Source: Candidatus Woesearchaeota archaeon
GTDB lineage: Archaea > Nanobdellota > Nanobdellia > Woesearchaeales > BM511
NCBI GenBank assembly: GCA_002867475.1
Contig: PKTL01000039.1
Location: 1 to 47,101 of the forward strand
DNA: 47,101 bases
Direction: 5' to 3'
Shown here: positions 81 to 46,925 of the stretch, one piece after another
Layout of the letters: every line of letters begins with the position of its first letter
Numbering within the stretch: position 1 is the stretch's first letter
Made by a program: the position numbers and the translations under genes
The notes under the pieces: model-generated
The model's database searches: none
What the model saw: only the letters and a program-made list of their open reading frames with translations
What the model was told of the DNA's origin: nothing

Positions 81-812
81 ATGCAACCAATGCAACACCA
101 AATGATGGGTTATGACAGAGCCATCACAATGTTTTCACCAGATGGAAGATTACTACAGGTGGAATACGCAAAAAAAACAGTAAGACAAGGAAGCACAGTA
201 ATAGGGATGATCTGTAAAGATGGAGTATTACTAGTAGCAGATAAAAGGCTTCCAGACAAGCTAATAGTCGCAGAAGGAGTAGAAAAAATATTTCCAATCG
301 ATGATCACTTAGTAGCAACAGCTGCAGGAATAATCAGTGACGCACAGGTACTAGTCGATCACGCACAAGTAAAAGCACAACAGATCAAAGTTACTTATGG
401 AGTTGACTCAGATACATTAAGCATAGTAAAAGATGTATGCAGCCTAAAACAAGTATGCACACAAAGCGGAGGACTGAGGCCATTTGGAGTAAGCTTACTC
501 ATAGCCGGAATAGACAACAACAATTCCAAAAAACTATACAAGACAGATCCAACAGGAATATACTTCCAATACAAAGCAACAGTGATAGGTGAAGGTGAAC
601 CAGAAATAGAACCAATCCTATTCAAAGAGTATAAAGATGACTTATCTGTGGAGCAAGGATTATCCTTATCTATAAAAGCAATGATGAAAGCGTTAAACGA
701 CAAATTTGAATCAGGAAGAATCGACGCGGCATTCGTAAATGCTGAAAATCGAACAATGGAAAGAGTCGATAAAGAAAAGATAAGCAAGCTTATCGAAGAA
801 CACAAAAAATAA
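81..812 (+). CDS. psmA: Proteasome subunit alpha
   Basis: YDRAITMFSPDGRLLQVEYAKKTVRQGSTVIG N-terminal alpha-subunit signature. Confidence 0.97.
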   Translation: MQPMQHQMMGYDRAITMFSPDGRLLQVEYAKKTVRQGSTVIGMICKDGVLLVADKRLPDKLIVAEGVEKIFPIDDHLVATAAGIISDAQVLVDHAQVKAQQIKVTYGVDSDTLSIVKDVCSLKQVCTQSGGLRPFGVSLLIAGIDNNNSKKLYKTDPTGIYFQYKATVIGEGEPEIEPILFKEYKDDLSVEQGLSLSIKAMMKALNDKFESGRIDAAFVNAENRTMERVDKEKISKLIEEHKK

Positions 813-833
813 AACGATAACAAAATAAAATAA

Positions 834-1550
834 ATGAGTAGAATAACTTATGATGCGGAAAAAGTAACATTCAACCTTGCAAAGATAAGAAAAGGTGGAG
901 AAAACTTTGAAGTAGCAATAGATCCAGACTTAATCGTGAATTACAAGTCCGGCAAAGAAACAGATGTAAAAGATATATTGAAAAGTGAAAAAATATTCTT
1001 TGATGTCAAAAAAGGCCAGCTTGCAAGTGAAGATAAACTAAAAGAAGTGTTTGGAACAACAGATGTGTTCTCAGTATCCAAAAGGATATTTGATGAAGGT
1101 GAAATACAGTTCACTGCAGAATACAGGCAAAAGCTACAAGAAGAGAAAAGAAAAAAGATAATTGATCTAATCCACAGGAAAGGAGTAGACCCAAAAACAG
1201 GACTACCTCACCCAACAACAAGGATTGAAAATGCTTTTGAGGAAGCAAAGATAAGAATAGACTACTTCAAGAAAGCAGAGGAGCAAGTCGAAGAGATAGT
1301 AAAAAAGATACGAATAATCTTACCAATAAGGTTCGAGACAAAAAAGATAGAAGTGAAAGTCGGACCAGAGCATTCATCAAAAATATATGGTGTTCTTCAA
1401 AATTATGGAAAGATAATTGAACAGAACTGGTTAAATGATGGAGGGCTCCAATTAATTATTGAGCTTCCAGCAGGAATAGTGCAGGAATTTTTCGACAAGC
1501 TAAACAACATGACTCACGGTCAAAACGAAACAAGAGAAATAGGTGAATAA
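834..1550 (+). CDS. Ribosome maturation protein SBDS/SDO1
   Basis: SBDS-like sequence (KRIFDEGEIQFTAEYRQ, RKGVDPKTGLPHPTTRIENAFEEA) and its usual position between psmA and rrp4. Confidence 0.95.
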   Translation: MSRITYDAEKVTFNLAKIRKGGENFEVAIDPDLIVNYKSGKETDVKDILKSEKIFFDVKKGQLASEDKLKEVFGTTDVFSVSKRIFDEGEIQFTAEYRQKLQEEKRKKIIDLIHRKGVDPKTGLPHPTTRIENAFEEAKIRIDYFKKAEEQVEEIVKKIRIILPIRFETKKIEVKVGPEHSSKIYGVLQNYGKIIEQNWLNDGGLQLIIELPAGIVQEFFDKLNNMTHGQNETREIGE

Positions 1551-2295
1551 ATTGAGCAAACTATTGATAAAAGAAAAAGAAATAGTAGTCCCAGGAGAAA
1601 CACTTGCAACAGGAATGGAATACCTACCAAGTGTTGGGACCTACAGAAAAAATGATGCAATCCTAGCAAACAAATTAGGAATAGCAGTAGTAGATGGAAA
1701 AGTAATAAAGATAATCCCAGTAAGCGGAGCATATCACCCAAAAAGAAATGATACAATAATTGCAAAAGTAATAGATATCAGTATGAGTGGGTGGAGAGTA
1801 GACACAAACTGTGCATACTCAGCAATGCTATCAATGAAAGATGCAACAAGCGACTTCATAAGAAAAGGTGAAGATCTTACAAAATACTTTGACATAGGAG
1901 AATACATGGTCTGTCAGATAACACAAGTAACAAGCCAGAACCTAGTAGACGTAACATTAAGAGGACCAGGACTAAAAAAACTTGGAAAAGGAAGAATAAT
2001 CGAAGTGAGTCCGCATAAGGTTCCAAGAATAATTGGAAAACAAGGTAGCATGGTAAGTCTCATAAAAGACCATACAAATACAAGAATAACTGTAGGACAA
2101 AATGGTATTGTATGGATACAAGGAGAACCAGCAGGGGAGATTCTAGCAATTAAAACAATAAGGATGATTGAAGAACAAAGCCACATCAGTGGACTTACTG
2201 ATAAAATCAAAGAATATTTAGAAAAAAATTCACTAAAAGTCGAAGGTAAAAAAGACGAAAAACAAAAAAGTGAAGACGACCAAGGTGAAGAATAA
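1543..2295 (+). CDS. rrp4: Exosome complex RNA-binding protein Rrp4 (GTG or internal TTG start)
   Basis: S1 and KH regions (KVPRIIGKQGSMVSLIKDHTNTRITVGQNGIVWI); exosome operon context. Confidence 0.95.
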   Translation: MNKLSKLLIKEKEIVVPGETLATGMEYLPSVGTYRKNDAILANKLGIAVVDGKVIKIIPVSGAYHPKRNDTIIAKVIDISMSGWRVDTNCAYSAMLSMKDATSDFIRKGEDLTKYFDIGEYMVCQITQVTSQNLVDVTLRGPGLKKLGKGRIIEVSPHKVPRIIGKQGSMVSLIKDHTNTRITVGQNGIVWIQGEPAGEILAIKTIRMIEEQSHISGLTDKIKEYLEKNSLKVEGKKDEKQKSEDDQGEE

Positions 2296-2296
2296 A

Positions 2297-3007
2297 ATGG
2301 CATACATAAAAAGACACGATGGACGTAAAATGGAAGATTTCAGACCTGTCGAAGCAAAGGTTGGAGTCGTAAAAAGAGCAGATGGCTCAGCAATGTTCAA
2401 AATTGGAGATACTGTAGCATTAGCAACAGTTTATGGGCCAAGAGAACTGCATCCAAGATTCTTACAAAATCCTGAACGAGGAGTATTAAGAGTATCATAC
2501 AACATGATGCCATTTTCAGGACAAGGAGACAGAGTAAGGCCTGGACCAAACAGAAGAGCAAAAGAAATTGCAATGGTAACTGAAAAAGCATTATTCCCTG
2601 TATTAAATCTAGAGAATTATCCAAATGCGGTAGTTGATGTAATGATAGAATTACCTCAGACAGACGCAGGAAGCAGGTGTGCAGGAATCTGTGCAGCAAG
2701 CATGGCTTTAGCAGATGCAGGAATCACTATGAAAGATATGGTTCCAGCAGTAAGCGTTGGAAGAGTAGGAAAACAGATCTTAGTAGATCTTGACTATTAT
2801 GAAGAAGCATATGATGAAGAAACAGTTGCAGATATACCTGTAGCATTAATACCTTCAACAGATGAATTTACACTTCTTCAAATGGATGGAGATGTTACAA
2901 GAGAGCAATTAAAAGAAGCTTTAGAAATGGGAAAATTTGCTTGTAAAAAAATATATGATATACAAAAACAAGCGCTTAAAGACAAATTTGCAGGTGACCT
3001 AAAATGA
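2297..3007 (+). CDS. rrp41: Exosome complex exonuclease Rrp41
   Basis: RNase PH fold protein, MAYIKRHDGRKMEDFRPVEAKVGVVKRADGSAMFKIGDT; start refined from 2270 to ATG 2297, just after the rrp4 stop. Confidence 0.95.
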   Translation: MAYIKRHDGRKMEDFRPVEAKVGVVKRADGSAMFKIGDTVALATVYGPRELHPRFLQNPERGVLRVSYNMMPFSGQGDRVRPGPNRRAKEIAMVTEKALFPVLNLENYPNAVVDVMIELPQTDAGSRCAGICAASMALADAGITMKDMVPAVSVGRVGKQILVDLDYYEEAYDEETVADIPVALIPSTDEFTLLQMDGDVTREQLKEALEMGKFACKKIYDIQKQALKDKFAGDLK

Positions 3008-3792
3008 GTAAAGATAATATGAAAGACTTATTTAGCAAATATCTTGAAACAGGAATCAGGTTTGATGGAAGAAAACTTGATGAATTTAGAGATATATCTA
3101 TAGAAGTTGGAGTTTCAAAAACTGCAGAAGGAAGCGCTCAAGTAAAAATTGGCGACACTGAAGTCATTGCAGGAGTAAAATTATCAATTGGAGCACCATA
3201 CCCAGACACTCCTGAAGAAGGAGCATTAATGGTTGGAGCAGAATTCTTACCAATGAGCAGCCCAGATTTCGAATCAGGACCTCCAGGTATTGAATCAATT
3301 GAATTAGCAAGAGTAATCGACAGAGGTATTAGAGAAAGTCACGCTGTAGACAACAAGAAATTATGCATCACAAAAGGTGAGCAAGTATGGACTGTAAGCG
3401 TTGATATATGCACTGTTAACGATGATGGAAACCTGCTTGATGCTAGTGGACTTGCAACACTTGCAGCACTTATGGACTCTTACTTCCCTGAGTTTGATGG
3501 AGTAGCAGTCGATTATAAGAAGAAAAGCAAGAAAAAGCTTCCAATAGTAAAATATCCAATCCCAATAACAGTATACAAGATTGGAGAAAAGCTTTTTGTA
3601 GACCCAAGCATTGACGAAGCAGATCATTATGATGCTAGACTAACAGTTACAATGTTAGAAAATGACCTTGTTTGCGCACTTCAAAAAGGAGGTTCAGCAC
3701 CACTTACTGCAGAACAAATCGATGAAATGGTTGCATTAGCACAAAAAACAGCACCAAAACTTAGGAAAAAATTACAAGGTAATAAAAAATGA
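3004..3792 (+). CDS. rrp42: Exosome complex component Rrp42
   Basis: Second RNase PH-like protein, overlaps rrp41 by 4 nt (ATGA). Confidence 0.95.
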   Translation: MSKDNMKDLFSKYLETGIRFDGRKLDEFRDISIEVGVSKTAEGSAQVKIGDTEVIAGVKLSIGAPYPDTPEEGALMVGAEFLPMSSPDFESGPPGIESIELARVIDRGIRESHAVDNKKLCITKGEQVWTVSVDICTVNDDGNLLDASGLATLAALMDSYFPEFDGVAVDYKKKSKKKLPIVKYPIPITVYKIGEKLFVDPSIDEADHYDARLTVTMLENDLVCALQKGGSAPLTAEQIDEMVALAQKTAPKLRKKLQGNKK

Positions 3793-4094
3793 GAGAAGTA
3801 GCAACTGACGTTACAACCTTCACAAAATATGAGAAGGCAAGAATGATTGGAAGCAGAGCATTACAGATCTCTATGGGTGCTCCACTTGCTCTTAAGTTTA
3901 AAACAGAAGAGCTGGAAGCAATGAACTACAACCCTGTAGAGATTGCAAAAAAAGAATTTGAAGCTGGAAAGATACCTCTAAAAGTTTTGAGAGATCTTCC
4001 AATGAAGAAATCTGTTGCTAGGGAAGAAGCTGCAAAAGAGGAATCTGTTGCAGAAGAAGCTGCAGAAAAAGTATCTAAAGAAGCAGAAGTATAA
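3789..4094 (+). CDS. rpoK: DNA-directed RNA polymerase subunit K (Rpb6/omega) with acidic C-terminal tail
   Basis: FTKYEKARMIGSRALQISMGAPLAL ... PLKVLRDLP motif. Confidence 0.9.
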   Translation: MREVATDVTTFTKYEKARMIGSRALQISMGAPLALKFKTEELEAMNYNPVEIAKKEFEAGKIPLKVLRDLPMKKSVAREEAAKEESVAEEAAEKVSKEAEV

Positions 4095-4099
4095 GCTTC

Positions 4100-4131
4100 G
4101 ATTTTTTTCTTTTTTTCTTATTTTTTTTAAT
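4100..4131 (+). terminator. Poly-T terminator of the exosome operon
   Basis: Repeated T-tracts (TTTTTTTCTTTTTTTCTTATTTTTTTT) immediately 3' of rpoK. Confidence 0.6.
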
Positions 4132-4173
4132 ATTTAGATAACATTTTTAAACATCTAATCCTATGGTTCTTAT

Positions 4174-4761
4174 ATGGATTTGACAAATGCAGATCTCGAT
4201 GCACTAAAAGAGATTGCAAGTATAGGCTCTGGTAACGCAACAACTTCATTATCAAAGATGATAAACGCACCCATAGATATATCCATGCCTGAGATTCATT
4301 TTGATACTTGTGAAAATGTGATTTCTGAATTTTCTGATTCAGGATATCTTGCATTAGCAGAAATGTTTGGAGATATTGCAGGAAAAATAATATTTCTTTT
4401 CAATAGAAAAGATGTATTGAGGTTTGTTGAGGTTCTTATGGTGAAAGAAAAAGGCACTTTAGAAAACCTTAATGATGTTGAAAAATTAGCATTCGAGGAG
4501 GTTATTAACATAGTTTCAGGAGCGTATATGAATGCTTTAGCAGATTTCTTTGAGATAAGGTTATTACCAAGCCATCCTGAATTCTTAAATTTTTTCGATA
4601 CAACAGATATAGCAAAAATGATAGGGAGAGGACAGAAAGTCTTAGTACTAAAATCTCAATTCATGTCAAATGAGGAGGGTATAAATAATATGTATTTAAT
4701 CTTTAATGAAAAAAATTTAGAATTCTTACTCAATATAATAGAAATGAAAAGAGCAAGTTGA
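4174..4761 (+). CDS. CheC-family phosphatase-like protein
   Basis: Two CheC-type E-x2-N motifs: LKEIASIGSGNATTSLSKMI and FEEVINIVSGAYMNALADFF. Confidence 0.88.
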   Translation: MDLTNADLDALKEIASIGSGNATTSLSKMINAPIDISMPEIHFDTCENVISEFSDSGYLALAEMFGDIAGKIIFLFNRKDVLRFVEVLMVKEKGTLENLNDVEKLAFEEVINIVSGAYMNALADFFEIRLLPSHPEFLNFFDTTDIAKMIGRGQKVLVLKSQFMSNEEGINNMYLIFNEKNLEFLLNIIEMKRAS

Positions 4762-4779
4762 TTATATCTTAAAATAAAT

Positions 4780-6408
4780 TCACATCATTCCTTGTGAAGG
4801 ATCCATAGGTGGACCTTGTGGTTCAACACCTGCAGCGATAACATCATCAATTCTAAGTATCATTATAGCAACTTCTGCAGCGCTGCTTATAGCTTGAGTC
4901 TTTATCCTTAAAGGTTCAATAACACCTTCATTGATAGGATCCATAAGTTTTCCAGTAAAAACATTGATACCTGTTTTTTCATTTTTCTTATGGCTACTTT
5001 TCAATGAAGTAATCACGTCAATCGGATCTAACCCCGCATTTTCTGCCAAAGTTGCAGGAATAACCTCAAGACTTTTAGCAAAAGCTTCAACCGCGAGTTG
5101 CTCTCTACCTTTCAAAGTATCAGCGAACTCTTTCAATCTTAAAACAAGTTCGATCTCTGGAGCACCAGCACCAGGAACGATTTTTCCATCCTTAACGCTA
5201 GCACTAACAACGCCAATGCTATCTTCAAGTGCACGTGCGACTTCATCAATCACATGATCTGTTCCGCCACGAACAAGGATAGTAACGCTTTTTGCACCCT
5301 TGCAACCACCAATCATAACAGTAGGATCATCACCGATTCTTTGTTCTTTAACAACACCTGCTTTTCCAAGGTCATTAACATCAATGCTATCAATGCTTGT
5401 AGCAATCCTTGCGTTTGTCGCTTTAGCAATTTTTTCCATATCGCCCTTTTTCACACGCCTAACAGCAAAAACACAATTTTTAGCAAGAATGTGCTGAGCA
5501 AGATCGTCAATACCTTTCTGGCAAAACACAACATTTGCTCCGCTATCAATAATCTTTTGAGCGATCTTTTTGATCATCTGTTCTTCAAGATCCATGAATT
5601 CCTGCATTCTAGCAGGATCTGTGATTTGAATTTTTGTATCGATCTCATTATCTCGAAGTTCAATTGGTGAATCTATAAGAAGGATCTTAGGTTCTTCAAC
5701 CTTTTTTGGCATTTCAGCATGAACTCTCTCCTTATCAAGGAGGATACCTTCAATAAGTGTTGTGTCTTCAACATTTGCACCTGCCACTTTTTCGATCTTG
5801 ATATCATCAACATCAACATCTATTCTATCCTCTTCTTTACTCATGACATCAAGAACTGCCGATACAACAATCTCGGAAAGCTTAGTTTTAGCATTTTCTG
5901 CACCTTTACCTGTCATAGCTGTTCCTGCAATATTAAGAAGGGTTTTTTTATCATTGATATCTATTTTTTCAGAATAATCTTTTACAACTTCAATAGCTTT
6001 TGAAGCAGCAAGTCTATAACCATTGATTATGACAGTTGGGTGGATCTTATCATCAAGAAGCTCCTCGCTTCGTTTAAGAAGCTCAGCTGCAAGTATAACA
6101 GCAGTAGTAGTACCATCACCAACTTCATTCTCTTGAGTCTTAGCGATCTCAACAAGCATCTTTCCAGCAGGGTGCTCAATATTCATCTCTTTTAGAATCG
6201 TGACTCCATCATTAGTGACTATTATGTCACCAAGCGCATCCACTAGCATCTTATCCATCCCTTTAGGGCCAAGTGTTGTCCTGACTGTTTCACCTACGAG
6301 CTTTGCAGCTAGGATGTTATTTCTTTGAGCGCTTTTACCAGTTTCTCTTTTTGAATCTTCTGGCAAGATATATATTGGTTGTACATTTCCTTGATTATTT
6401 CCATTCAT
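4780..6408 (-). CDS. Thermosome subunit (group II chaperonin)
   Basis: [50 protein letters not shown]. Confidence 0.98.
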
Positions 6409-7414: not shown

Positions 7415-8239
7415 ATGGCATTACTTGGCGGAACAATCGCATTATTGATATACGTAATAATTATAGTTCTAGTGTTTAAACTAGTAAAGAGTGCAATAAA
7501 GACCCTATTGATAGCAATACTTCTTTTTGGAATCATACTGGCAGGAACAACCTATTTCGTTGTGAAAGACTTAAAAGATATGCAAGAAAACTTCCCAGAC
7601 CAACCAAAATTAATTCTTTTAGGTGATGGAGAAAAACTTCTCGCAGGATTCACAGCAGTGGATATAACTTCAGACAATTTGAGATACTTGTCAGATGAAG
7701 AATTAAGTAAGCTTAGCAATTATTATGTTGAAGAGGATTATGATACTTTACTTGATATAAACTATAAGTTCTTCCTATTTAATTTAAGCATGTACGATGA
7801 AGTGATAGCTGAAGGTGTTGAGATACAAGATATTGGTGAGTCTTTGGTATATCTTTCAGGTGAAAAACTTACTGAAGCATTATATTCAAATAATCCAATA
7901 GATACAATACTTAATATAGTGGTGGATAAAATTGTAGAAGGTCAATTGGAATCAATCCCTAATTCAGATCAGTTAACTGATGAAATGATTGAAGAGCTAA
8001 AAAATCAAGTGATTGAAAATGCAAAAGCAGAACTTGCAAATACTAGTCCAGGTCAATTGAAAGCAATGCTGTTATCCTTGATGCTTAAGGAAAAGATCGA
8101 AAAAGAAGGTCCATCATCTATTTTTATGGATCTAAAGAATGATGAATTCAAAGTGTATCCAGAAACTGCTGTATTCAAATTGATAAAATTCACACCTTCA
8201 AGGTTTATAGAAGGTATAACATCTAAGATGAATATATAA
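7415..8239 (+). CDS. Hypothetical membrane-anchored protein
   Basis: N-terminal hydrophobic helices; SD-like GAGGTGA upstream. Confidence 0.8.
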   Translation: MALLGGTIALLIYVIIIVLVFKLVKSAIKTLLIAILLFGIILAGTTYFVVKDLKDMQENFPDQPKLILLGDGEKLLAGFTAVDITSDNLRYLSDEELSKLSNYYVEEDYDTLLDINYKFFLFNLSMYDEVIAEGVEIQDIGESLVYLSGEKLTEALYSNNPIDTILNIVVDKIVEGQLESIPNSDQLTDEMIEELKNQVIENAKAELANTSPGQLKAMLLSLMLKEKIEKEGPSSIFMDLKNDEFKVYPETAVFKLIKFTPSRFIEGITSKMNI

Positions 8240-8262: not shown

Positions 8263-10890
8263 ATGGTGAGAGGTCAAAAGATCCTAATATTGATGATTTT
8301 TCTAGTCAGTTTACCGATCATCTCATATGCACAGGATTATAATGATATAAGTGATGGTGAAATAATCAGTTTTGAAGAGTCTTCACTAAAAATAAATGTG
8401 GTAAGCGATTTAGTAAGGGTTACAAGCCAAGAGATCATAAAGATGCTCTTGATTAGAGAATGTGACACTTTATTTGATATGAAAATATGTCTTAAGAATG
8501 TAACCTATGATTTTGATGTGAGTGCAAACTTAGCTGATATGAACATAACAAACTATGATGCAGATATAGATATAGATAGATCCTTGAAGAATTCCAACCT
8601 TTATGTTGGTGTTGAGAACTCAGTTATTATAAAGATAAAAAATGATGGGATTCATTCCGCTTCAGATGTAACTTATGAAGAAAGATTACCCTCAAATTTC
8701 AAGATATTGGATTGTGAAAATTGTGAGATAGACGGCAACACTGTAATCTTTGACAAGGATATAGAAAAAGGTGGTGAAGAATCATTCGAATACGCTTTCA
8801 AGATACTAAATGGTGAAAGCTATGTATCATCCGGAAAGATGAATTATGTCGCGGTTGAAGATAAAGAGCTTTATTCAGAAGGGTTAGCGTTCAATCCAAA
8901 AACACCTTTCGATATAGATGTTGATTATGGTGATAATAATCTTAATCTTGGTGAAGAAACTTCCTTAAAATTTACATTCACAAACCTTATTGGTGAAGAA
9001 ATAGATTTTGAAAATATCATATTATATGTTCCTGCAAACGCTATGATAAAGAACAATAAAGGACAGCTTATCGAAAGTGGAAAGATTGAAGATCTTGGCT
9101 CATTCAAACTATATACTGAAACAACATATGTGACTGTAAACTATACTGAAGAGGAGATTGTAAATGGATCAACAGTTCTGGTGAACAAAACAAGGGAAGA
9201 TATAGATAAATCAAAAGAAAAAATATTTTATTTCAAGATAATACCAAAAAATGATGATCCTATAAATCTGATCATGGATTTCTATTATGAAGTTGACGAT
9301 GAAGACATAGTTCAATTAGGATACAAGAATAAATATGTTCCAGATAAGCTTGAAGTGAAAGCAACATTTAACATAGTAAAAGGGGATAAGTTTGATGAGG
9401 GATCAAGAAAAGATGTAATATTTCAATTGCTGAATCCTTATGAGAATGCAATTCTAAAAGATGTCATAGCAAGATTCTATTCGCCTTTATTTGGAGAAGA
9501 GAAATTCTTTTTTGAATCTATAGATGAAGGGAGATCAAAAAAATTAATACACAAACCTTTGACGTTTCCAGAACTCAACGAGACAAACCTTAACACATAC
9601 ATAATCTATAATGTAACCTTCTATGACGAATTCGATAATTTTTATGAGATGAACAAGAAGATAGATTTCTCAGTTGTAAAATTACAACCAGTCAAATTAG
9701 AAGTCAAAGGATGCACAAACAAATTGGATTTTGGAGATGCTTGCACTTATGAAGTTATATTGACAAATAATATGAAAGGTGATCTATACAATGTTTTTGT
9801 TGGAGAATCTTATAGTACAGAAAAAGTCATAAAAGAAGGTTATGAATACACAAGTTTCGATCTAAAAAGCGGAGAGAAAAAAACTGCATATAAAGTAAAA
9901 GTTGAATATCCAAAAAATATCAATGACTTCATAGCTTCATTTAACGCGACAACAAAAATATCATATAATTACCTTGGAGAATCATTTGAAGATGAAAAGG
10001 TAAGAACTATAACCTTCAATGAGTTTACAGGCACAAAATCAGAATATGATGTCTCATTCACATCAGCTATAGACTCAACAGATCTTTTCAAAGGAGTAAT
10101 CTATAAAGTTACTCAAACAATAGAAAACAAGGATGAAAATCCAATAAAATATATTAAGATAACATTTGATAATTATGAAAATATAGATTTCTTGGATTTT
10201 GATATGGTAGAAGTGGAGATGCTTTATCCTGGAGAGAAAATATCAAAAACTTTTTTCATAAGATCTAAAGATGATATAAAAACCAATCTTAAATCAAATC
10301 TTTACTTTGAGGATCAACAAGGATTTTCCCATGAAAAAACAAGTGAACTAAAGAATCTAAATTTTAAGGAAAGTTCATTTTCAGGTCCAAATATCAAGAT
10401 AATCATAGGTTCTGATAATCAAACAGTTCCTGGAGAATTTCTACAAGTAGGAATATCAATAACTAATGAAGGTAATGATGAAGCCACAATAAATCTGCAG
10501 CTTTATGATGGGAATATGAGAACCTATACTCTTTCACCAAAAAACTCCATGAACCTAAAATCTGAATATTATATAGGTTACTCAGGTGATATAACTTTAG
10601 ATCCCTTATTTGGAAATTATACATATGCTAATCATGTATATCTTATAAATTCAAACACAATTGAAGTATTATCAGTTATAGAAACAATAAACAAAACTGA
10701 AGATACAGAAATAAACTTAATCGATGAAGATTCTCAAAATATTCGTGATCAAGATGATATCTTAAAACAAAATAATGATTCACAAAACATTAATATAGTT
10801 GAAGGTACTGATGATGAAGAAGACACCAAAAAAGATTCGATGATTTCAAGATTCATTGCAAAAATAAAGACTTGGTTTGGGTTAGGTTGA
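8263..10890 (+). CDS. Large secreted protein with repeated DUF11/CARDB-like beta domains
   Basis: N-terminal signal peptide (ILILMIFLVSLPIISYAQ); NVTYEERLPSNFKILDCENCEI-type repeats. Confidence 0.8.
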   Translation: MVRGQKILILMIFLVSLPIISYAQDYNDISDGEIISFEESSLKINVVSDLVRVTSQEIIKMLLIRECDTLFDMKICLKNVTYDFDVSANLADMNITNYDADIDIDRSLKNSNLYVGVENSVIIKIKNDGIHSASDVTYEERLPSNFKILDCENCEIDGNTVIFDKDIEKGGEESFEYAFKILNGESYVSSGKMNYVAVEDKELYSEGLAFNPKTPFDIDVDYGDNNLNLGEETSLKFTFTNLIGEEIDFENIILYVPANAMIKNNKGQLIESGKIEDLGSFKLYTETTYVTVNYTEEEIVNGSTVLVNKTREDIDKSKEKIFYFKIIPKNDDPINLIMDFYYEVDDEDIVQLGYKNKYVPDKLEVKATFNIVKGDKFDEGSRKDVIFQLLNPYENAILKDVIARFYSPLFGEEKFFFESIDEGRSKKLIHKPLTFPELNETNLNTYIIYNVTFYDEFDNFYEMNKKIDFSVVKLQPVKLEVKGCTNKLDFGDACTYEVILTNNMKGDLYNVFVGESYSTEKVIKEGYEYTSFDLKSGEKKTAYKVKVEYPKNINDFIASFNATTKISYNYLGESFEDEKVRTITFNEFTGTKSEYDVSFTSAIDSTDLFKGVIYKVTQTIENKDENPIKYIKITFDNYENIDFLDFDMVEVEMLYPGEKISKTFFIRSKDDIKTNLKSNLYFEDQQGFSHEKTSELKNLNFKESSFSGPNIKIIIGSDNQTVPGEFLQVGISITNEGNDEATINLQLYDGNMRTYTLSPKNSMNLKSEYYIGYSGDITLDPLFGNYTYANHVYLINSNTIEVLSVIETINKTEDTEINLIDEDSQNIRDQDDILKQNNDSQNINIVEGTDDEEDTKKDSMISRFIAKIKTWFGLG

Positions 10891-10899
10891 GGTGAACAC

Positions 10900-11493
10900 A
10901 TGGGAATAATGGATGTATTCAAGAAAAAAGAGGAAAACTTTGATGATCTTCTAAAAGAACCAGAAGGTGGTTCCTGGGATTCAAATCAATTAGGAGGAAA
11001 TTTAGGTTCAAATCCGGATCCGTTATTAGGATCATCAGGAACATCTCCATTTGGAAATGATATGGGGAACACATCTGATTTCACAAAAGGAATACCTCCA
11101 GAAAACAATTTTAATTCTGAAGTTATGGGATTACCAAATCAATCAAGCAATAGTACTCAAGGATATCCTTCTGATGGAAGCGAAGACATTTTAGGAAATA
11201 ATGGGACAAGTGCATCAAGCCTTGGCCTAGATACAAACTATCCAAGTTCTCCTCCAAATATGAGAAGTAATGATGATGAAAACAATCATGATGAAAGATT
11301 TCAAGCATCAAATAATGAATTTGTGAATAATCAAAACGAAGCTCAAAATCCTAATCAAAATACTATGAATTCAAGAGATATGGATCTGATAATCTCAAAG
11401 CTTGATCTTATAAAGTCAACCTTGCAGCACTTAGATTCAAGAATCTCAAACATCGAACAGAAACTCTACGAAGAAAAACGAGATAGATGGTAA
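10900..11493 (+). CDS. Low-complexity N/S/G-rich protein with C-terminal coiled coil
   Basis: ISKLDLIKSTLQHLDSRISNIEQKLYEEK heptad pattern. Confidence 0.7.
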   Translation: MGIMDVFKKKEENFDDLLKEPEGGSWDSNQLGGNLGSNPDPLLGSSGTSPFGNDMGNTSDFTKGIPPENNFNSEVMGLPNQSSNSTQGYPSDGSEDILGNNGTSASSLGLDTNYPSSPPNMRSNDDENNHDERFQASNNEFVNNQNEAQNPNQNTMNSRDMDLIISKLDLIKSTLQHLDSRISNIEQKLYEEKRDRW

Positions 11494-11942
11494 CTAAAAA
11501 CAAAAATAGATTTATTCTATTGATAATCTTTGGAACCTTAATATTTGATCAACTTACAAAATATTTTACAAGATCCTATAATCCTCATATTGGAGGTTTC
11601 ATATCATTAACATTTGAAAAAAACACTGGTTCAGCATTCAGTTTTCTGTCTGGACAAAACCTTTTATTAGTATTTGTATCCTTAATATTTATTGGTGTTT
11701 TTCTTTTTTTAATCGATAAAATATTTCTTGAAAAAGATTACTATGCATATTTCTTTATTCTTGCAGGTGCCATAGGAAACTTGATAGATAGGATTTTTCT
11801 AGGTTATGTAACAGATATGATAAATGTTGGAACTTTTCCCGTATTCAACATCGCTGATAGTGCAATAACAATCGGTGCTGTGATAATTATCTTTAATGCA
11901 TTAAAAGAAGAATTCTTTAATAAAAAAAAGATTAAGAAATAA
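11487..11942 (+). CDS. lspA: Lipoprotein signal peptidase (signal peptidase II)
   Basis: DQLTKYF; EKNTGSAFSFL; both catalytic Asp motifs GNLIDR and FNIADS; multiple TM helices. Confidence 0.92.
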   Translation: MVTKNKNRFILLIIFGTLIFDQLTKYFTRSYNPHIGGFISLTFEKNTGSAFSFLSGQNLLLVFVSLIFIGVFLFLIDKIFLEKDYYAYFFILAGAIGNLIDRIFLGYVTDMINVGTFPVFNIADSAITIGAVIIIFNALKEEFFNKKKIKK

Positions 11943-25322: not shown

Positions 25323-26735
25323 ATGGGTATTTTTAGCAGATCTCAAAAAGTGAATAAGTATGTACCTTACAAGGTACAAGTGGTAGGAAGAACCCTTCCT
25401 CAAAATAGGCGAAAGCCTTTATACAAACGATTTAGTAATTCAAAATATAAGCTTGAAGATGTGGTGGTGCTTCTTAGACCCATGACTTATGTTATCTCTT
25501 CACCTGCTGCTATAACAAACTATTTCTTGAAAAATTTTAAGATGAATCTTTTTGAGGATGAAGCAAGGCTCATACAAAAACTTGCAAGATCTATAATTGA
25601 CAAAGCAAAAATTGCAATGATATTAATAGCTGCGGGAGTGACAATCGCAGTATCAACACTTTCAAACTATGATTTTGATAAATTCAACTTTGATGATTTT
25701 AAAGCAAAATATTCAATTGAATTAACTCAAGAGTCAGATGATAATCCTATTTCAAGGTCTGATGAAGCGCATGATGCTATAACAAGTCCTCATCAGAACA
25801 ATGGTTCAGTTCAGATATCTGTGGAAGATGTCAAGAAACCAGAATTGACACCTATTGAAAAGTCAGGGATACATCCTTCATTATTGCAAAAAATTCAAGG
25901 TGAAAATAAGGATGGCGTGATTGATGACTTAAGGGAAAATGTCTCTGTTCGAACACTTGTAAAAATTGTAGAAAAAACCGCGAGTGGGCAAGATTTATCT
26001 GCTGCGGATCTAGCAAACGTGAAATCAGCAATTGAAAATGATAAAGAATCTGTTGATTCAATAAAAAGCTCAGGTATCAAGAAAACATTATATGATATTT
26101 ATGAAAGAATACAAAATAAGGAAAAAGCAAAGGAATTGAGGTATAAGGCAAAGAAATTCACTCAAACTTTTGATGGTTATGATCTTGATCTATTGAAATC
26201 AAGAGTAAGAAATGTTGGTTCAAGCTTTAAATATAATTCTGACCTTGGAAAATATATTATAGATGTTGATGAAATAAATTCAAGGCTTGCAAAAGCATTG
26301 TATGATTATTCAATAAATGGAACAATTGAATATCCTCAAGCAAAGATTAATCCTTTCATGGCTTTTTCAATATGTCTTATTGAATCAAATTTTGGAAAAA
26401 GTACAGTAAGTAGGCCCGGTGCAAAGATGCCTATGCAAGTGATGCCAGCAACAAAAAATCTATATTATAAAGGGGATGATAATTGGAACTATGTAAAAGC
26501 CGCGTTCCCTCACATGCATTTTACCGCTGAAGAGCTTGGAATAGATGTCCTGAATCCAACAATGTCTGACTTTGCAATACTTGGAGCAGTATATAACGCA
26601 GGTATAGGTAATGCAAGAAACAGTGTTTCAATATTCAATAAGTTTTCAAAAGAAACAACAGATTATGTAAAGCTTATGCTTACTATAAAAGAGAAAGTCA
26701 TATTCAAACATAATGGAAAACTAATAAGAGCTTAG
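25323..26735 (+). CDS. Membrane-anchored lytic transglycosylase (SLT/GEWL)-like protein
   Basis: Internal TM (IAMILIAAGVTIAVSTL); C-terminal SICLIESNFGKSTVSRPGAKMPMQVMPATKNL and GAVYNAGIGNAR match the SLT motif series. Confidence 0.8.
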   Translation: MGIFSRSQKVNKYVPYKVQVVGRTLPQNRRKPLYKRFSNSKYKLEDVVVLLRPMTYVISSPAAITNYFLKNFKMNLFEDEARLIQKLARSIIDKAKIAMILIAAGVTIAVSTLSNYDFDKFNFDDFKAKYSIELTQESDDNPISRSDEAHDAITSPHQNNGSVQISVEDVKKPELTPIEKSGIHPSLLQKIQGENKDGVIDDLRENVSVRTLVKIVEKTASGQDLSAADLANVKSAIENDKESVDSIKSSGIKKTLYDIYERIQNKEKAKELRYKAKKFTQTFDGYDLDLLKSRVRNVGSSFKYNSDLGKYIIDVDEINSRLAKALYDYSINGTIEYPQAKINPFMAFSICLIESNFGKSTVSRPGAKMPMQVMPATKNLYYKGDDNWNYVKAAFPHMHFTAEELGIDVLNPTMSDFAILGAVYNAGIGNARNSVSIFNKFSKETTDYVKLMLTIKEKVIFKHNGKLIRA

Positions 26736-28414: not shown

Positions 28415-28498
28415 AATTAAAGAATTTTGATTTAATATATAATCTTTATTGAAAAGTTAAAGATAAATATTATATAAGCCAAATGAGTGTTTTATGAT

Positions 28499-29545
28499 AT
28501 GAAAAAGATACTAACTATGCTTTTTTTGATAGTTTTTTTATTATTTATAGCTTCATGTGGTGAGAACACTATGAAAAATACAAAAACCAATAAGACTGTT
28601 CCAGAAGGATACAAGGTAGCTACTTTTGCAGGTGGATGTTTTTGGTGTGTTGAATCAGCATTTGAATCTCTTGAAGGAATTGAAGCAATAAGTGGATATG
28701 CTGGTGGAAAAGAATCAAATCCAACTTATAAAGAAGTGAGCAGCGGAATAACAGGGCACAGAGAAGCTATTCAAGTATATTATGATCCAACAAAATACAC
28801 TTATGAAATGTTGCTAAAGACCTTTTGGACTCAAATCGACCCAACAGATGATGGGGGCTCTTTTGTTGATAGAGGATTCCAATATACAAGTGCAATATTT
28901 TATCATGATGAAGAACAAAAAAAACTAGCTGAAGAATCTAAAAAGGAAATCGAAAAAAGTGGCAGATTCAATAAACCAATTGCAACAAAAATAATTCCAT
29001 TTACAACATTTTATCCTGCTGAAGAATATCACCAAGATTACCATAAGAAAAACAGTCTAAGATTCAAGTTTTACAAGGCACAAAGTGGAAGAATGGATTT
29101 CATAGATGGATATTGGAGCGACGAATATCTAATGAAAAAACAACTGACTGATGAACAGTACAAAGTAGCGATTGAAGGAGGTACAGAAATAGCTTTCAAT
29201 AATACGTATTGGGATGAGAAAAGAGAAGGGATATATGTGGATGTAGTAACAGGTGAGCCCTTATTTAGCTCAATAGACAAATTTGATAGTGGAACTGGAT
29301 GGCCAAGTTTTACAAAACCAATAGAAAAAAATAATATTATAGAAAAAGAAGATAACTTATTAACCTATGCTCGAACTGAAGTAAGAACAAACACAACGCA
29401 TTTAGGTCACCTATTTGATGATGGTCCAATCGATGCAGGTGGTATGAGATACTGCATAAACAGTGCAAGTCTTAGGTTTATTCCAAAAGAAGAAATGGAT
29501 AAACTTGGATATGAGGCATATCTTTATTTATTTAATCAATCATAA
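28499..29545 (+). CDS. msrAB: MsrA-MsrB fusion peptide methionine sulfoxide reductase, predicted lipoprotein
   Basis: Lipobox LFIASC; Msr[10 protein letters not shown]; MsrB SGTGWPSF ... [13 protein letters not shown]; start refined to ATG 28499. Confidence 0.95.
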
Positions 29546-37672: not shown

Positions 37673-38520
37673 ATGAAAAACATACTTAAACTGATAAGAG
37701 TGACACAATGGTATAAGAATCTACTTGTATTTGCAGCATTGTTCTTCTCAGGAAATTTTCTAAATATAGATCTCGCAATAACAACATTATTGGGTTTTTT
37801 TCTACTCTCAATAATATCTTCAGCAGGATATATAATGAATGATTTTATTGATAGAAAAAAAGATTCGCTAAATCCGGAAAAGAAAAACAGAGTGCTTGCA
37901 AACGGGAAAGTGAGTATAAAATTAGCATTATCAATATCCTTAATATTCTATTTTTTAGGGTTCATATTATCATATGTTCTTTCAGTGCAATTCTTTTTCA
38001 TAGTATTATTGATAGCACTAATAACTATTATATACAGTCTTTGGCTTAAGCATTGTGAATTTTTAGATATAATATTGATATCATCAAATTTCATATTGCG
38101 TGCACTTGCAGGAGTCGTATTGATAAGTGTGGTTCTTTCACCTTGGTTTTTCCTAGGAATATTTTCACTTGCGTTTTTTTAGTATCTGCAAAAAGATATG
38201 GTGATCTGATTTTTTTAAAAAAGGATGCGAAAAAATACAAGCCAGTACTTGCAAAATATGATACTGAAATATTGAGATCGATGATGCATATGTTCATGAC
38301 AATCTTGGTTTTGATATTTGGATTTTACTCGTTTTTTTCAGGAAAAGAAAAGCTTTTTGTGCTTTACCCCTTACTAATATATTTTCTACTAGTTTATTAT
38401 CAAGGAGTCTTGAAAGGTGAACCATATTCAAGAAATCTAGAAAAAATAATATTTGATAAAAGATTGATGATTACTGGAATCCTATTATTCATCGGATTGA
38501 TAATAGGTGTATATATATGA
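37673..38520 (+). pseudogene. UbiA prenyltransferase family (DPPR-synthase-like), split by a -1 frameshift at a T7 run; may be programmed, sequencing error or real lesion
   Basis: ORF 37673-38182 (NDFIDRKKDSLNPEKKNR, SPWFFLGIFSLAFF*) continues in the -1 frame as LVSAKRYGDLIFLKK ... to 38520. Confidence 0.8.
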
Positions 38521-42760: not shown

Positions 42761-43087
42761 TTAATCATCATTAAAATAAGGATCTTCTAAAATTTCTACA
42801 CATTTATTATTTTTACACTCAACACCATAGCTTTGAACACAACCATACACGCAATTAGAATTAAATCCTTCAATCAATTCTTTTATTCTATCACCTTCAG
42901 CTTTATTAACATAAATATAGCATCCAAAAGGACATTTACTTCCAATAAAAAAACAATCATCATCAGAATTGCAATAATTTGCTTGAGTTATCTTTTCTTT
43001 AATATTATTCTCATAATTATCCTGAAAGCAACCAGTAAAAAATGTGGATGATAACATGATAAAAATAAAAATTATTATTTTTTCCAT
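42761..43087 (-). CDS. Small Cys-rich predicted lipoprotein
   Basis: N-terminal MEKIIIFIFIMLSSTFFTGC lipobox-like; eight further Cys. Confidence 0.75.
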   Translation of the reverse strand: MEKIIIFIFIMLSSTFFTGCFQDNYENNIKEKITQANYCNSDDDCFFIGSKCPFGCYIYVNKAEGDRIKELIEGFNSNCVYGCVQSYGVECKNNKCVEILEDPYFNDD

Positions 43088-46007: not shown

Positions 46008-46925
46008 TCATCTTATATATAATTTACTATTTGTAATATCGCTTGTTAAACCTTCACCAATGCTTTTTCCAAAACCGTTTGTGAAACCATAAATCATTTC
46101 ACTAAAGGAGACTTCTCTATGATATTCTTCAAATTGTACTGTCTCATTCAATTTGGTTTCTAAAAAGCTGATAAGTTCAGCTTCACTTCCAAGACTATCA
46201 ACAAAACCAAGCCTGAGCGCTTCCTTACCAAGCCAAACCTCTCCAGTAGCAAAGCTTTCAACTTTTTCAATATTCATATTTCTACCACTGCTTACTTGAT
46301 ATATGAACTCATCACGTAAATCAAAAAGAAGCATTTCAAGCATCTCTTTCTCTTCATCAGTCATCTCTTTGTAAGGACTGCCTAAATCTTTGTAATCTCC
46401 AGCAATCATCCGGTTATAAGTGATGTTATATCTATCAAGAAGACCTTCAAACGAAAGATAAGCGCCAGTTACTCCAATGCTTCCAACAAGACTCATTCGA
46501 TTAGCCATTATGTGATCTGTGCTTGCAGCAATCCAATAAGCACCACTAGCACCAATATCTCTAATATAAGCAATAGTTGTGATATTTAATCCTTTCAAGC
46601 TTTCAATCTTTTGACTTATTTCATCACTAGCAACAGGGCTTCCGCCCCCGCTATTAACTTCAAATACTATAGCTTTAGTATTAGGATTCTTGACAGCTTC
46701 ATTTATTAACCCATTTATTACATCAGGATCTGCGTTACCTGATGACATGAAACTATCATAATTGGATGCAATGACTCCTTTAACATCAATCACTGCAACA
46801 TTTCCTGTTTTAACATCAAAAAATATTACGTCTAATAATATGCCTGTAATCCAAAGTACCAAAAGAAAACTAATGGCTTTTTTCCAATTGAACTTGTTCT
46901 CAATTTTAACATCTTTTTTTTTCAT
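46008..46925 (-). CDS. sppA: Signal peptide peptidase SppA
   Basis: VNSGGGSPVASDEI; GASGAYWIAASTDHIMANRMSLVGSIGV; DYKDLGSPYKEMTDEEKEMLE. Confidence 0.95.
   Translation of the reverse strand: MKKKDVKIENKFNWKKAISFLLVLWITGILLDVIFFDVKTGNVAVIDVKGVIASNYDSFMSSGNADPDVINGLINEAVKNPNTKAIVFEVNSGGGSPVASDEISQKIESLKGLNITTIAYIRDIGASGAYWIAASTDHIMANRMSLVGSIGVTGAYLSFEGLLDRYNITYNRMIAGDYKDLGSPYKEMTDEEKEMLEMLLFDLRDEFIYQVSSGRNMNIEKVESFATGEVWLGKEALRLGFVDSLGSEAELISFLETKLNETVQFEEYHREVSFSEMIYGFTNGFGKSIGEGLTSDITNSKLYIR

Follow-up and report, generated by a model that had tools for sequence, protein, structure and literature searches.

The lspA gene in a 47,101-nucleotide stretch of a Candidatus Woesearchaeota genome (contig PKTL01000039.1; hereafter the window) encodes a true signal peptidase II. 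With a probability of about 0.88, this LspA is the second enzyme of a predicted bacterial-type lipoprotein pathway that is native to the archaeal lineage. This reading is supported by intact lspA and lgt genes in one archaeal genome, by their joint presence or absence among relatives, by conserved active sites and folds, and by an excess of lipobox proteins. The enzymes themselves are ordinary members of known families. What is new is the stable presence of both in an archaeal phylum without detected bacterial phospholipid synthesis, which is surprising against current statements: recent papers hold that Lgt does not occur in archaea (mBio 2026; J Bacteriol 2025), and according to a 2025 review the bacterial components have no identified archaeal homologues (PMC12186497). 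The genes lspA and lgt may already carry these names in automated annotation, and the novelty therefore lies in recognising a phylum-wide pathway, not the enzymes. Our literature searches, which extended to sources other than the original AliA/AliB paper, did not turn up any account of Lgt or LspA from DPANN archaea. AliA and AliB of Haloferax volcanii likewise lipidate lipobox proteins in an archaeon; in the papers that cite them (PMC13251419, PMC12186497) they are described as non-homologous to the bacterial enzymes, whereas in the Woesearchaeota genome the bacterial enzymes themselves are present. Features are listed in Table 1.

Table 1. Location of lspA, its neighbours, the candidate lipoproteins, and lgt (window positions unless another contig is named).
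Feature	Location	Strand	Details
lspA, signal peptidase II	11487..11942	+	intact ORF, 151 aa
lspA-linked small protein	10900..11493	+	197 aa; same-strand gene directly upstream of lspA
Large secreted protein with DUF11 domain	8263..10890	+	PF01345, 27 bits; between membrane-protein and coiled-coil genes
Membrane protein, three genes upstream of lspA	7415..8239	+	homologues near lspA in 14 relatives; no Pfam family
Archaeal context on lspA contig	81..6408	.	proteasome alpha subunit, SBDS, exosome-like ORFs, thermosome; Pfam: proteasome, SBDS, Cpn60_TCP1
Candidate lipoprotein, MsrA-MsrB methionine sulfoxide reductase	28487..29545	+	PF01625 + PF01641; lipobox LLFIAS|C
Candidate lipoprotein, Cys-rich	42761..43087	-	108 aa; lipobox STFFTG|C; no family match (Pfam, NCBIfam)
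lgt, single copy	contig C21, match G000:C21:5591-6307		250 aa; PF01790, 230.6 bits, E 1.2e-68, cut-off 24.9

The lspA ORF is full length and its product has a confident LspA fold; activity is predicted from these features. The protein matched PF01252 at 105.6 bits in a Pfam profile search (cut-off 25) and the TIGR00077 lspA profile at 84.6 bits (cut-off 73.95), and its sequence matched the PDB LspA chains 6ryo (E = 2e-17), 9emz, and 5dir. All 14 highly conserved residues, taken from the list for S. aureus LspA (PMC6952399), are kept (D21, K25, N46, G48, G94, N98, D101, R102, V108, D110, F120, N121, A123, and D124). The initial annotation had named GNLIDR and FNIADS as the two catalytic aspartate motifs. 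Both are present, and FNIAD does hold one member of the dyad (D124); the aspartate of GNLIDR (D101), however, is conserved and not catalytic, the partner being D110 in YVTDM. D110 and D124 align with Asp118 and Asp136, the catalytic aspartates of S. aureus LspA as identified by mutagenesis (PMC6952399). An AlphaFold2 model (pLDDT 93.6) has the four-helix fold with an extracytoplasmic beta-cradle, and its matches at E<0.001 were five chains, all from the LspA entries 6ryp, 6ryo, and 5dir (TMq 0.70–0.75). Compared to bacterial LspA (PF01252, MEROPS A8; S. aureus 6ryo, P. aeruginosa 5dir), the window copy is alike in length, fold, the 14 conserved residues, and the aspartate dyad; it differs in belonging to an archaeal phylum, in its identity of ~32–33% to the solved bacterial structures, and in its linkage to the phylum's uncharacterised coiled-coil gene.

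A Cys-modifying transferase, either Lgt or an archaeal substitute, had been placed outside the window by the initial annotation, which proposed a genome search for lgt. That search of the source genome (1.67 Mb, 84 contigs, 95% complete) yielded one Lgt (prolipoprotein diacylglyceryl transferase). The transferase does lie on another contig, and no archaeal substitute is needed. In addition to PF01790, it matched TIGR00544 (195.6 bits, cut-off 118.9) and the E. coli Lgt structure 5azb (E = 3e-36), which was also the sole match of its model at E<0.001 (pLDDT 94, TM 0.82). Residues were compared with those that are essential or part of the catalytic network in E. coli Lgt (PMC4728403): Y21, H99, R139, N142, G150, R211, and R218 correspond to E. 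coli Y26, H103, R143, N146, G154, R239, and R246, and Y207 is also kept. Across 36 archaeal Lgts the equivalents of Y26, R143, N146, and G154 are invariant, and those of H103, R239, and R246 nearly so. By sequence and predicted fold this is a bona fide bacterial-type Lgt, with activity predicted. It shares with bacterial Lgt (PF01790, TIGR00544; E. coli 5azb) the fold, the HGG motif, the GR..NFIN.E..G signature, and the R143 and R239 equivalents. The differences are its occurrence in an archaeal lineage without detected bacterial phospholipid synthesis and the position of E. coli E243, which is Asp215 here and variable in archaea: among the 36 archaeal rows (L002:1480-2229 and 35 others) it is E in 19, D in nine, T in five, and N in two, with one gap, while 73 of 74 bacterial Lgts have E. 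The E243A, E243Q, and E243R mutants of E. coli Lgt are inactive (PMC4728403). Some archaeal Lgts could accordingly differ in function at this site, though the variation is not proof of a changed donor lipid. Several genomes have more than one Lgt-family match (four in G030, three in G036, and six in G107), possibly paralogues with other substrates.

Both enzymes recur throughout the phylum. Of 41 genomes of the order, 34 have LspA and 35 have Lgt; of 194 genomes of the phylum, 154 have LspA and 161 have Lgt. A comparison of the two lists by hand gave 151 genomes with both enzymes, 30 with neither, ten with Lgt only, and three with LspA only. Recognisable LspA had been described as absent from most characterised archaea, and this holds for the four control genomes (Methanocaldococcus, Haloferax, Sulfolobus, and Methanosarcina), where neither enzyme was detected at E 0.001, but not for this phylum.

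Bacterial DNA carrying lspA and lgt in the contig or bin would also place these genes in the assembly, which is fragmented into 84 contigs, and both LspA and Lgt are bacterial hallmarks. We nevertheless regard contamination as wholly improbable and rejected it because of the recurrence of both genes, their synteny, and their occurrence in genomes assembled as one contig. The lspA contig itself carries genes for the proteasome, SBDS, and the thermosome; the gene after lgt encodes an archaeal-type triose-phosphate isomerase and is near lgt in five relatives too; the 151 genomes with both genes include four that are single contigs (G013, G106, G074, and G103); and at 44 of 55 loci lspA has the same archaeal gene ahead of it. 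The possibility of contig contamination, which the initial annotation had itself raised, thus finds no footing in the contig content, the recurrence across the phylum, or the conserved lspA neighbour. The named Lgts closest to that of the genome are 52%, 50%, and 43% identical to it and come from a Nanoarchaeota, a Woesearchaeota, and a second Nanoarchaeota archaeon, respectively, which would place the window in or near Woesearchaeales (Nanobdellota). These relatives were found with an Lgt alignment as query; a single LspA sequence used in this kind of search gave no match. A tree separated the 36 archaeal from 74 bacterial Lgts with support of 100/97. When three Bacillota were added, the free tree mixed Bacillota among the archaea, and a tree with the archaea constrained together had a better likelihood than the free one (p-AU 0.66); a single archaeal Lgt clade is allowed, and not rejected, by this alignment. 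The LspA tree (156 columns, six bacteria) gave no resolution.

The neighbour gene in question is the small coiled-coil gene, whose 3' end shares 7 nt with the start of lspA. It is the same-strand upstream neighbour of lspA in those 44 phylum loci, often overlapping the lspA start. The encoded protein has a short basic N-terminus (FKKK; FWKK in relatives), a low-complexity or disordered linker, and a conserved C-terminal coiled coil, and none of its matches to Pfam or NCBIfam families passed the cut-off. No such gene was seen in the portions covered of three genomes without LspA. The protein is a possible LspA partner. Homologues of the large secreted protein are near lspA in four relatives, and aIF1A-like genes are near it in 21.

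Two proteins of the window had been proposed as lipoprotein clients, and both fit a lipobox pattern, the Cys-rich one less well. The Cys-rich protein (42764-43087) carries Phe at −3, a residue outside the strict G+LPP pattern, and is the weaker candidate of the two. The MsrAB protein may start at GTG 28487 or at the internal ATG 28499. Across 637 kb of this genome (~38%, 555 genes, window included), we counted the proteins in which a lipobox-ready signal peptide is immediately followed by Cys, using a home-made gene caller and pattern, not SignalP. Ten perfect lipobox proteins were observed against 1.5 expected (6.6-fold, P about 3e-6), and under the strict pattern seven against 0.6. The prospect of finding no genome-wide lipobox enrichment, which would have spoken against the idea, is not what these counts bear out. 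Two single-contig genomes with both enzymes had five against 0.8 and eight against 0.65, giving an excess of 6–12 times expectation across the three genomes with both enzymes. Three genomes with neither enzyme had 0, 0, and 1 lipobox proteins against 0.11, 0.18, and 0.53 expected. The pooled comparison under the strict pattern is modest (P = 0.17 for signal-like proteins, 0.003 for all proteins), since the enzyme-less genomes are also poor in signal peptides. One perfect lipobox protein (L242, 7727-8179) occurs in a genome (G003) without detected Lgt or LspA, where lgt and lspA may be missing from the assembly.

Both window candidates are among the ten lipobox proteins of this genome. Pfam searches with seven others returned cupredoxin/COX2-like, beta-propeller, and cyclophilin-like proteins, a weak thioredoxin-like match, and three consecutive unknowns. 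Together these sequences suggest that the clients serve redox and copper functions on the cell surface. The working lipoprotein pathway that had been proposed from the window alone is, as a prediction, largely sustained on the scale of the genome, with Lgt on another contig, Cys enriched at the lipobox, and both genes recurring together across the phylum.

The two enzymes might instead be kept for another job, such as the processing of a few non-lipidated surface proteins, or be decaying remnants. The variable E243 position of archaeal Lgts and the ten genomes with Lgt and no LspA are in keeping with such a history, and the 13 of 194 genomes with one enzyme only were counted against a native pathway. 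We consider this alternative reading very unlikely: active-site residues are conserved although the overall identity of the relatives' enzymes to the copies of this genome is ~30–57%, lspA and lgt are strongly co-inherited, and Cys is enriched exactly at the lipobox position.

In the native pathway, Sec would export the lipoprotein precursor, Lgt would join the thiol of the lipobox Cys to a diradylglyceryl group from a phospholipid, and LspA would cleave before the lipidated Cys by means of D110 and D124, leaving the mature protein anchored to the outside of the membrane. A step by Lnt (apolipoprotein N-acyltransferase), the third of the bacterial pathway, is not expected in this genome, where no LNT_N domain (PF20154) was detected; among the 41 relatives only two had this domain above cut-off. 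Mature proteins should consequently carry the S-linked lipid only. Isolated relatives have the Lnt N-terminal domain or a bacterial PlsY (L286 and L287 in G037 and G039; L269 and L270 in G032 and G035), which may reflect transfer or contamination.

The question of which lipid is attached follows directly, as the enzymes are believed to use bacterial ester phospholipids, yet the lipids expected in these cells are isoprenoid ethers with the opposite stereochemistry, many of them host-derived. A lipid operon in this genome encodes a phosphatidyl/archaetidylserine decarboxylase, an archaetidylserine synthase-like protein, and CarS (CDP-archaeol synthase). GGGPS (PF01884), G1P dehydrogenase (G1PDH, PF13685), and PlsY (PF02660) were not detected in the genome, and 39 of 41 relatives likewise lack PlsY. 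GGGPS matches in five relatives were short and weak, and we set them aside as probably chance TIM-barrel similarity. A Woesearchaeota subgroup without GGGPS and DGGGPS has been published (PMC8421398), as has lipid uptake by a DPANN symbiont (PMC11035636). Because archaeal head-group genes are present while GGGPS, G1PDH, and PlsY were undetected, the donor is probably isoprenoid and built on host-scavenged cores; the likeliest donor is an archaeal ether phospholipid, partly host-derived, in the form of archaetidyl phospholipids.

The main alternative is that Lgt and LspA use a non-archaeal lipid, namely fatty-acyl phospholipids from a bacterial partner. Undetected GGGPS and G1PDH mean that lipid cores are probably scavenged, and the E. 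coli enzyme has been described as having specificity for the head group of phosphatidylglycerol (PMC4728403). We hold a bacterial donor to be doubtful, since the presence of CarS and archaetidylserine synthase-like genes implies that the cell handles archaeal lipids, PlsY is missing from nearly all relatives, and the hosts of all cultivated DPANN are said to be archaeal (PMC11291902). We lean, by a small degree, towards a bacterial-type Lgt of this phylum that has become adapted to move archaeol-type diether lipids (made or scavenged archaetidyl phospholipids with the opposite glycerol stereochemistry) onto the lipobox Cys, with LspA accepting the product. If so, the adapted enzymes would constitute a bacterial pathway operating across the lipid divide. 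The identity of the attached lipid is a direct probe of that divide and is now testable, and the pathway bears on how very small symbionts retain proteins at the cell surface.

Three further genes of the window were recorded. An SppA-type signal peptide peptidase (46008-46925, minus strand) could clear cleaved signal peptides. A weak lytic transglycosylase (SLT) domain (25323-26735, plus strand; 22.7 bits) is odd for a cell expected to be without peptidoglycan. A UbiA-family prenyltransferase (37673-38520, plus strand) is broken into a pair of ORFs that overlap (37673-38182 and 38143-38520) by a frameshift that would be either an assembly error or gene decay.
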